64,000 nucleotides of DNA. Source: Candidatus Korarchaeum sp. (lineage in GTDB: Archaea; Korarchaeota; Korarchaeia; Korarchaeales; Korarchaeaceae). The notes below the pieces were generated by a model. It did no database searches and was not told where the DNA came from. It saw only the letters and a list, made by a program, of their open reading frames with translations. Numbering within the stretch: the stretch's first letter is position 1; each line of letters opens with the position of its first letter. The DNA lies in assembly GCA_038888615.1 (NCBI GenBank), contig JAWAID010000001.1:434001-498000 (forward strand), given 5' to 3'. The position numbers and the translations under genes were made by a program. Positions 17,051-33,773 of the stretch are shown piece after piece.

Positions 17051-17122
17051 GGGTCTGTCAACGGTTTCAGGGCATAGATATTTACTCTAGGAACGGAATT
17101 GGGTATGTAAAAGCACTACACG

Positions 17123-17202
17123 ATGAAGGAGATCAGTAGGATTCTCGACACTATCCCTAGAGGAAGTGCCTGATATGTGGGTTCTGGGCTAAATATGGAT
17201 AA
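17123..17202 (+). pseudogene. Possible 5' remnant of an interrupted gene
   Basis: A TATA-like AGATATTTAC at about 17084-17093 predicts transcription near 17115. An ATG at 17123 opens 16 codons (MKEISRILDTIPRGSA, then stop). In the +1 frame the next codons read CLICGFWAKYG and stop inside the palindrome at 17186-17219, a CxxC pattern that would continue naturally after PRG. This looks like the head of a gene cut by the element end described next, with one frameshift. I do not recognise the protein. Confidence 0.3.
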
Positions 17203-17420
17203 GTATATCCATTTAGCCCTTGGGACTCATCGGCCTCCCGATCATCGGCCCCCGTCAGGGTGAACCCGCTCCAAGCCCTCATCAGCTCTAAAGAGCCTAG
17301 GGCTTAGAGAAAGTCCCTCCATCTGAAGGTAACAGGCAGCTTAATGCTGCCTATCCCCAACCCTCATAGCTCCTTTCGGGGCATCACCCATCCCACATCC
17401 GGAGCTCGTAGGGTCACCTG
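17183..17420 (-). ncRNA. Orphan transposon-end / omega-RNA-like transcript
   Basis: Read on the minus strand, this stretch shares ordered blocks with the 3' end of the IS607-type element at 33640-33752: GGATGTGGG, CCCCGAAAGG, a GGTTCA/GATGAACCCC part, CCGATGAGTCCCAAGGGCTAA (there CGATGAGACCCAAGGGCTAA, both in pieces), a terminal palindrome and GAACCC. It holds no tnpB frame beyond a possible short tail (GCGMGDAPKGAMR). A TATA-like TTTTTAAAT near 17442-17450 on the minus strand predicts a transcript of about 230 nt ending at the palindrome. It may be a solo omega-RNA or a decayed element; an unrelated structured RNA is possible. Confidence 0.5.
17186..17219. repeat. 34-bp palindrome at element terminus
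   Basis: GGGCTAAATATGGATA on the left is answered by TATCCATTTAGCCC on the right around a short AGTA centre. A near copy, with the same order of parts, lies at 33714-33746 at the right end of the IS607-type element. It can fold into a strong hairpin in RNA of either strand. Confidence 0.75.
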
Positions 17421-17425
17421 TGCCC

Positions 17426-17737
17426 TCTTACCACTCATCTCATTTAAAAACTATCCCATACCTCCGTATTTCTATACCTAGACCTATCTTGGAACTGCTG
17501 GTGACGGCGGAGTGAATAGGCCGAGGGGCTATCTTCAAGCGTGGGGAGTGCGGCTTTCAGACAAACAGATACCTAGTCACCGTCTTGAACATAACTGTGA
17601 AACTTCCGATGCGTTGTTTTACCTTTGCCCCGAAAGCCCCGAGCCCTTGATGTTGGAGGTGATGGGGAGGGAACGAAGATCCATGAGTCCCACAACGGTT
17701 AAATGGGGGAATACGCGAGGGAGACTCGGGGATCGGT
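17426..17737. other. 312-bp gap upstream of the 17738 gene
   Basis: It holds an AT-rich run near 17442-17450 that could be a promoter for the minus-strand transcript, and a weak plus-strand TATA (GGTTAAATGG, about 17696-17705) for the gene at 17738. A 112-codon frame starting at 17512 crosses it, but it shadows the next gene in another frame, lacks a ribosome-binding site and has no recognisable motif. Confidence 0.4.
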
Positions 17738-21824: not shown

Positions 21825-21926
21825 TGGCGGGGCCGGGATTTGAACCCGGGACCTCCGGATCTCCCAGCGGCGCCGTGGCCCTAATCTTATGAGTCCGGCG
21901 CTCAAACCAGGCTGAGCTACCCCGCC
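21825..21926 (-). tRNA. tRNA-Met (CAT) with a 27-nt intron
   Basis: On the minus strand: acceptor GGCGGGG (21926-21920) pairs with CCCCGCC (21832-21826), with A as discriminator and no encoded CCA. Anticodon stem CCGGA/TCCGG, loop CTCATAA, anticodon CAT. About 27 nt (starting AGATTAGGG, ending GGGAG) interrupt the loop after position 37, the standard archaeal site. The lack of a GGG/CCC anticodon stem argues against initiator tRNA; elongator Met is likely, and tRNA-Ile(CAU) cannot be excluded. A TATA box GTTTATTAAT lies about 21956-21965. Confidence 0.9.
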
Positions 21927-31871: not shown

Positions 31872-32004
31872 CGACGAATCACCTGGGGACCGGATTAAAA
31901 GATTTGGAGGCTGAGAAAAAAGGAACTCGTATGGTCTTCTAGTCGCCTTCTCAGCAGTTTCAAAATAGATATGTTTAAATATTGATAGATATAGAAGAAT
32001 ATTG

Positions 32005-32607
32005 ATGTCCGAGAGGCTCTACACTATCAAGGAGGCGAAGAAGCTTCTTGGAGTCACCACCTGGACTATTCAGCAATGGGATAGACAGGGTAAGATTAGG
32101 TGTGTTAGGACCGTTGGTGGCAGGAGGAGGGTTCCTGAAAGCGAAATAAAACGGATTCTTGGTTTAAGGGAGGAAAGAATTATTGTAGGGTATGCAAGGG
32201 TTTCATCCTCAACACAAAAGGATGATTTGGAAAGACAGAAACAGCTCATTTCGAGTTACGCTAAAGAGAGAGGTTATGGTGAAATTCAAATCCTAACGGA
32301 TGTTGGTTCCGGACTTAATGAAAAAAGAAAAAACTTCCTGAAACTCTTAGATATGATTTTAGAAAGAAGGGTATCTAAAGTTATAATCGCTTACGAGGAT
32401 AGGCTTACGAGGTTTGGGTTTGATACCCTGAGGAAAATATTCTCATCGCTTGGAACTGAAGTAGAGGTAATAAACCGTAAAGAACCTCGGGAAGAACTTA
32501 TTGAGGACCTGATAACAATAGTTTCTCGTTTTGCTGGAAAGCTCTACGGGTTGAGGTCTCATAAATATAAGGAGGTCGTTGAATACGTCAAGAAGGCTGT
32601 TAGTTAA
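32005..32607 (+). CDS. tnpA: IS607-family serine recombinase TnpA
   Basis: A 200-residue transposase. Residues 1-50 are a MerR-like helix-turn-helix ([26 protein letters not shown], in parts) and the rest is a resolvase-type catalytic domain with the active serine in [17 protein letters not shown] and the conserved [13 protein letters not shown]. It cuts and rejoins DNA through a serine-DNA bond and needs little target specificity. The TATA GTTTAAATAT (about 31972-31981) makes the ATG at 32005 leaderless. It appears intact. Confidence 0.93.
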
Positions 32608-33689
32608 AGCATACTCAATACCGCATAACCTTGAGGTAAACGGGCTTATGGAGAGTTACATACGCATCTTAAACGCTATCTTAGACGACCTGTGGGAAAA
32701 CATCACATGGAAAAGGAAGGATAAGAGACCTATACCATTTTTAAGGAAAGATAAGGCTTTTAGAAAAGAGCTTAGGGATAAGTATCTTGAAGGATGGATT
32801 TATTCTAAGCACTACGTGGATTCTGCGATAAAACAGGCTTATTCCGTGCTTGAATCGTGGAGAAAGAGGTACCTTCGTGGGAAGGCTGAAAAAGAAGGCC
32901 TGAGTTGAAGAGGGAGCTCGTGAGGATCAAGGAAACACTCTACAGCTACAGAGGCGGGGTGCTCAGGATTTCGATTAAACCCTATGAAGAAAGCGTGACC
33001 GTAGATTTGAGGAGGACGTGGTGCTGGGATAGGATAAGGGGATTGGAGCTCGGAGAACTCATGCTCAAGCAGGACAGGCTCATAGTTACCGTTAGAAAGG
33101 ATGTGAAGCTAAAGATTAAAGACCCAATAGCATGGGATACAAATCTCCTAACGCTAGATGGTTACGACGGTGAAACCTACTATTCGATAAGCCTGAAGGA
33201 AATTTATACTATCCACAGGACGTACGAGCTAAAGAGAAGGGTCATCCAAAAGCTCCCGGAGAAAACAAGGAAGAGGCTCCTGAAGAAGTACAGTTCAAGA
33301 GAGAGGAATAGAGTTAACGATGTATTATACAAGCTGGCTAAACAGCTATCCAACAGGACAAACATCTTCGAGGACCTGAGGGCAAGGATAGGGTGGCTAG
33401 GACGAAGAGCAGGAGCAGGCAGAACTCCAAGCACGACTACATCAAGCTGCAGAGATACGTGGAGTACAAGTCTGCGTGGAACGGGTATGCCACCATCTTT
33501 GTGAAAGCGAGGGGCACCTCGAAGACCTGCTCCGGATGCGGGTATCATAAAGACCTAAGGGGAGCGGGCACGTTCAGGTGTCCCAAGTGTGGACTCGTGG
33601 TCGACAGGCAGAGGAATGCGGCCAGGAACATCTGGAACTTAGGATGTGGGGAGTCATGGGTTCCCCCCGAAAGGGGTCAAGCTCGATGA
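32579..33689 (+). pseudogene. tnpB: tnpB, RNA-guided nuclease gene broken by two frameshifts
   Basis: Three frames join into one TnpB: 32579-32908 (N-terminal part), 32905-33504 (RuvC start and linker) and 33393-33689 (C-terminal part). Both shifts are of -1 type, the first at a TTGA overlap, the second near 33390 after FEDLRARI. The parts hold the RuvC acidic residues (WDTNLLTLDG, FEDLR, VVDRQRNAARNIW) and the zinc finger CSGCGY...CPKCG. TnpB cuts DNA guided by an RNA made from the element's 3' end. As it stands a full protein needs frameshifting or the sequence has errors. Confidence 0.88.
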
Positions 33690-33713
33690 ACCCCGAGGGC
33701 GATGAGACCCAAG

Positions 33714-33746
33714 GGCTAAGTGTGGATATACGTATCCATACTTAGC
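33714..33746. repeat. Terminal palindrome of the IS607-type element
   Basis: GGCTAAGTGTGGATATACGTATCCATACTTAGC folds on itself with one mismatched pair (written here as left arm GCTAAGT-TGGATA and right arm TATCCA-ACTTAGC). In TnpB systems the omega RNA ends at the element's right edge, so this hairpin lies at or just inside the scaffold end. A near copy sits at 17186-17219. Confidence 0.75.
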
Positions 33747-33773
33747 TTGGAACCCTTCTTTAGCTTTCTCGCT

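Follow-up and report, generated by a model that had tools for sequence, protein, structure and literature searches.

A ~330-base locus on the minus strand of the window (the whole 64-kb stretch of DNA that was analysed) looks like a miniature mobile element in which the protein gene is gone but both ends, a promoter-like site and the full guide RNA of TnpB remain. It thus resembles a parasite living on another parasite more than a solitary regulatory RNA. The explanation that fits best, and is considered likely, is a MITE that arose from an IS607-type TnpB element, with TnpA acting on it in trans and its RNA formerly used with TnpB for retention. The grounds are observations on the anatomy of the element, its mobility in many copies, the homology and structure of its RNA and the absence of targets in trans. 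Transcription, loading onto TnpB and a retention function of the MITE RNA are predicted from these.

The anatomy of the element is given in Table 1. It contains no intact transposase or nuclease gene, just a frame-broken remnant of the 3' end of tnpB, whose translation, SGCGMGDAPKGAM, aligns to TnpB from residue 331 on. The original prediction had reported that tnpB is missing, which is correct for an intact gene, and that the locus repeats sequence blocks from the 3' end of the IS607-type element further along the window. Two of these blocks, the terminal palindrome and GAACCC, are real. The last ~60 nt of the locus are clearly homologous to that element (query 224-282 with C1:467695-467755, 84%). 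Two others, GGATGTGGG and CCCCGAAAGG, consist at 17400-17372 of codons of the tnpB zinc ribbon (SGCGM..APKGA). The zinc ribbon of the window IS607 element lies at ~33526-33570, and the same-spelled strings there lie downstream of it. Because the two strings were paired out of register, the locus seemed to have about 90 extra bases in its middle, which are a by-product of the mis-pairing. The predicted interval, 17183-17450, is too short for the element. The flank beyond the palindrome was rightly named as the putative guide, but it starts at 17178. The predicted TATA-like run is present, and a transcript would be expected to start downstream of it, near 17420(-).

Table 1. Positions in the window of the MITE, the IS607-type element and the sequences flanking the MITE
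Feature	Position	Strand	Remarks
Whole non-autonomous element (group-1 MITE), ~330 bp	17179..17508	-	Runs from GCC at 17508 (left end) to GAACCC at 17184-17179 (right end); both ends recur in 5 siblings, the flanks of which are unrelated, and in tnpB elements of full length
Left end GCCGTCACCAGCAGTTCC	17491..17508	-	Type matches left end of window IS607 element (31945, GCCTTCTCAGCAGTTTC) and, in other archaea, of IS607 elements with tnpA+tnpB
TATA-like TTTTTAAATG	17441..17450	-	Within left-end stretch common to full-length tnpB elements; putative promoter
Out-of-frame tnpB zinc-ribbon remnant (~100 nt of coding 3' end)	17284..17404	-	Begins with hairpin GCTCC..GGAGC
omega-RNA core	17179..17283	-	Scored helices all intact, internal stem shortened
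GGGTTC, partner of terminal GAACCC (17184-17179)	17262..17267	-	Paired in 98% of cells in 17 relatives; intact in window copy
CCCAAG and terminal palindrome hairpin	17186..17224	-	Covarying helix 4 of relatives' alignment
Putative 20-nt guide ACATATCAGGCACTTCCTCT	17159..17178	-	Flanking DNA; homology stops at GAACCC in all copies; match to own locus only
IS607 element	31945..33755	+	Serine transposase gene 32002-32607; tnpB in three frames
omega-RNA of IS607 element	33642..33755	+	
Left half of older decayed tnpB of another family (..RKCLICG)	17051..17178	+	Joined flanks rebuild TnpB zinc ribbon; weak, E 0.004
Right half of same decayed tnpB (IFKRGECGFQTNRYLVTVLNI)	17510..17700	+	Joined-flank zinc ribbon; weak, E 0.004

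The element is one of many in the 1.67-Mb genome, in which a 301-nt query found 23 long matches and several short ones. The MITE copies number at least 14 in total. Group 1 has six copies of ~330 bp, including that of the window, which have one internal deletion in common and unrelated flanks. Group 2 has at least seven further copies, of ~310 bp and with other junctions. A 281-bp element at C2:125622 arose by internal deletion from another IS607 element, one that carries tnpA and tnpB. In addition, six elements of 1.1-1.4 kb carry tnpB, in broken form, between the same ends as those of the MITEs. Alignment of the copies with their flanks showed that they are alike up to GAACCC and divergent beyond. 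Their common left end is of the IS607 type, GCC..CAGCAGTT (CAGCAG type), which is also found at 31945 and in archaeal tnpA+tnpB elements. Relative to the window IS607 element, the left end is ~80% identical over 45-50 nt and the right end ~75-80% identical. A decayed 450-bp element (C2:87581-88029) has an IS607-type left end and two tandem weak omega-RNA matches (29 and 25 bits).

The RNA was identified with a covariance model, R1, built from 17 archaeal omega-RNAs that all come from outside this genome. R1 matched the window locus with 83.1 bits (E 3.7e-19) and the right end of the window IS607 element with 73.7 bits (E 8e-17), in both cases over the full length of the model; the third-best match in the 64-kb window had an E value of only 0.79. 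Thus the homology that had been claimed between the two loci holds, and the omega-RNA-like identity of the minus-strand RNA is strongly supported. Over the whole genome R1 gave 31 matches, and in 15 congeners 0-10 each. An Rfam 15 scan of the window at the gathering threshold returned tRNAs only and no family matching the omega-RNA. One of the tRNA matches, 102 nt long at 21825-21926(-), probably contains an intron.

The window RNA folds well beyond shuffled sequences (z = -5.6). RNAalifold found almost no covariation among the genome's own copies alone, and the relatives were therefore used for the structure, which was made by hand on an alignment of the omega-RNA regions of the 17 relatives. 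These aligned well. In this structure 93.8% of cells are paired and 12 of 22 pairs have changed on both sides; none of 500 shuffles equalled it, and versions slid along the alignment were 27-53% paired. The outer helix joins GGGTTC to the terminal GAACCC, ~100 nt apart, and corresponds to the pseudoknot of TnpB guide RNAs, which in ISDra2 joins the guide-proximal end to an upstream segment (PMC10097598). Nearly all strong copies retain this helix, which pairs the 3' end. A conserved internal stem (A2 columns 62-66 with 80-84) is shortened in the window copy and deleted or shortened in most of the genome's copies. One 90-bit match, at C1:364891-365022 (L029:4592-4723), has the full internal stem, unlike most of these. 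The 5' hairpin GCTCC..GGAGC shows some covariation at zinc-ribbon codons, where coding constraint acts as well, and is likely to be a 5' stem of the omega-RNA. By sequence and structure the RNA belongs to the TnpB omega-RNA class, and as such it would be transcribed and bind TnpB. The work supplies an alignment with structure for an omega-RNA family of archaeal IS607 elements, one with no Rfam 15 match at the gathering threshold.

The serine transposase gene of the window IS607 element is intact and is the only one detected in the genome, and no match to PF01797, the Y1 transposase, was found there. The anatomy of the MITEs gives good support to their mobility in trans by TnpA, and the window IS607 element probably mobilises them. 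An intact tnpB, either of the MITE family or of the IS607 element, is absent from the assembly; every one is frameshifted or deleted. Since many window ORFs of >400 aa are intact, indel errors are unlikely to affect the assembly at large. The tnpB of the window IS607 element (32579-33689) is split over three frames beside the intact tnpA. Two tnpB genes (C2:483221-484532 and C2:451803-453246) have a frameshift in common (SYRGG|RIKIS), and a second common frameshift, near VHKL|TSLS, is found in C2:451803 and C1:659214. These could reflect either copying after breakage or programmed frameshifting.

Related genomes hold tnpB-less omega-RNA copies of the same kind (G012, G023 and G005). The MITEs in G023 have the same layout as that of the window, and R1 matches ten places in G005 (63% complete), which has no tnpB. 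The genome of G012 (99% complete) retains a single trace of tnpB, the remnant within a MITE of ~290 bp (L069, G012:C6:14601-14840). The omega-RNA of this MITE scores best of all, with 150 bits, and its sequence is in the R1 training set. The left end of the MITE lies 47 nt before its zinc-ribbon remnant.

The proposed mechanism would begin with an internal deletion in an IS607-type TnpB element, leaving a MITE with two ends, a promoter-like site and a complete omega-RNA. TnpA, the serine transposase, would act in trans on both ends and move it. A transcript running from ~17420 through GAACCC into the flank would consist of a ~240-nt scaffold and a guide copied from the insertion site, and would load onto TnpB made elsewhere. 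Once the MITE has left a site, TnpB with this guide would cut it, and repair from the sister chromosome would restore the MITE, as in the TnpB retention model (PMC11870625). Such a retention role has about even odds of having existed historically. Neither the within-group conservation of the RNA core nor the present absence of an intact TnpB supports it. The suggestion that the locus borrows its TnpB agrees with the anatomy. The assembly, however, contains no unbroken tnpB of this family, and the RNA is therefore probably idle here now; perhaps it is still used by TnpB elsewhere.

The main alternative is a MITE in which the omega-RNA simply rides along, since the right end recognised by TnpA lies in it, and has no role in spread. 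This is a serious possibility, somewhat short of even. It agrees with the lack of an intact tnpB in the genome and of excess conservation in the RNA core: pairwise substitution in the core and in the adjacent tnpB remnant is 0.088 vs 0.113 in group 1 and 0.214 vs 0.154 in group 2, so that no extra constraint on the core is clear within the MITE groups. It agrees less well with the positions of the deletions and with the preserved 3'-end helix. In the seven internal deletions examined, 216-390 nt remain at the 3' end; all of them stop just outside the omega-RNA, which is spared whole, although much shorter right ends would still leave >60 nt. They include the deletion at C2:125622, in a different element, which joins at a position equal to window 33529, again outside the omega-RNA. 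The probability of this is ~3e-5 for uniform breakpoints and 0.013 among short elements; both values assume independence and uniform breakpoints and are indicative only. The breakpoints suggest that the omega-RNA matters to the MITE.

Use of the RNA for retention, if it occurred, can be extended to a broader and more tentative proposal. The MITEs may be guide-only parasites of TnpB systems. They would exploit the autonomous element twice, being moved by its TnpA and retained by its TnpB, to which they would supply an omega-RNA of their own and a freshly captured guide. They would be born repeatedly by deletions that have to leave the omega-RNA whole, and would outlive every tnpB in the lineage. 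If MITEs must keep the omega-RNA, then RNA-guided retention would be usable in trans and selected in elements without a protein gene. This would account for the miniature families to which TnpB elements give rise, and the retention model would become testable with a 330-bp substrate.

The locus could also be a right end in decay, left over from a tnpB element that was once complete, the deleted form of which never moved later. The genome is indeed full of broken tnpB copies, but the element has both its ends, and six unrelated sites carry one and the same internal deletion. The form with the deletion was therefore itself copied, and this reading is very improbable. Decay, which had been offered as one possibility, fits the tnpB genes of the genome and not the window copy, the scored helices of which are all paired. 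The genome has about 30 omega-RNA-bearing loci, and the terms orphan and solo, used in the original prediction, are misleading, because the MITE is mobile, occurs in many copies and has IS607-type ends on both sides.

A guide RNA that has been domesticated, to act in trans on a second locus or to serve as a regulator in the manner of TldR or an sRNA, would account for the TATA-like site and the intact fold, but is the least probable reading of all, since the 28 guide candidates each match only their own flank in the genome (best other match E 0.28), copies occupy unrelated, non-orthologous sites, which relatives lack where a comparison was possible, and no inactivated TnpB-like gene lies beside the locus.

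Two IS607-type ends, dispersed copies with the same deletion, no intact inner gene and a serine transposase in the genome place the locus, on its sequence, among IS607-type MITEs. It is filed as an omega-RNA-bearing MITE and not as a working TnpB system because the cognate tnpB is not intact in the genome. Stand-alone, trans-acting IscB omega-RNAs are likewise guide RNAs whose genes lie apart from that of the transposon nuclease which they serve; the window RNA differs in being of the TnpB type and in lying within a complete mobile element with both ends. By analogy, the locus would work like a MITE or PATE with a TnpB guide RNA. PATEs, the palindrome-associated transposable elements of Haloquadratum (PMC3119063), are also archaeal non-autonomous derivatives of TnpB elements formed by internal deletion, with a near-terminal palindrome and no terminal inverted repeats, and often lie inside other TnpB elements. 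They derive from IS605-type (Y1) elements, whereas the ends of the window MITE and the only transposase of its genome are of the IS607 type, no Y1 gene was detected there, and the full omega-RNA is kept. IS607 TnpB and its guide RNA (reRNA or omega-RNA; PMC10711439, PMC11061315, the latter with RAGATH-18-derived RNAs) share with the window locus a right-end RNA, a fixed flanking stretch followed by the guide and, most likely, insertion at GG (here CC). The window MITE differs in keeping the RNA without tnpB and in having no Rfam match at the gathering score. The guide RNAs of TldRs, domesticated TnpB regulators, are omega-RNA-like (see PMC13418256); the window locus has no adjoining TldR-like gene and no trans target among the 28 guides.

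The insertion site was examined from the flanks. Nearly all copies have GCC at the left end and ACCC at the right end. Reading frames restored by joining the flanks fit a GCC target at C2:518957, a locus with no orthologue in the genus, and at C2:375141. At the window locus the joined flanks give two zinc-ribbon halves, CLICGGVNRPRG..GECGFQTNRYLV, that also fit a GCC target. Two restored frames and one decayed gene thus make the CC of GCC (GG on the opposite strand) the most likely point of insertion, with other loci discordant. For IS607 itself, insertion takes place at GG, creates no duplication and requires TnpA alone (PMC6188088), and IS607 guide RNAs have a fixed right-flanking nucleotide (PMC10711439). 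Because the joined flanks restore a decayed zinc ribbon, the window MITE appears to lie inside the relic of another tnpB; Pfam gave no match to this ribbon. No clean, exact empty site was found in relatives: in G005 and G011 the neighbour genes are syntenic and the whole ~650-bp intergenic stretch, MITE and tnpB relic together, is absent. Elsewhere in the genome, by eye, a group-2 MITE (C1:525838-526125) adjoins an apparent 5S rRNA gene and a group-1 MITE (C1:141399-141715) an apparent tRNA gene.
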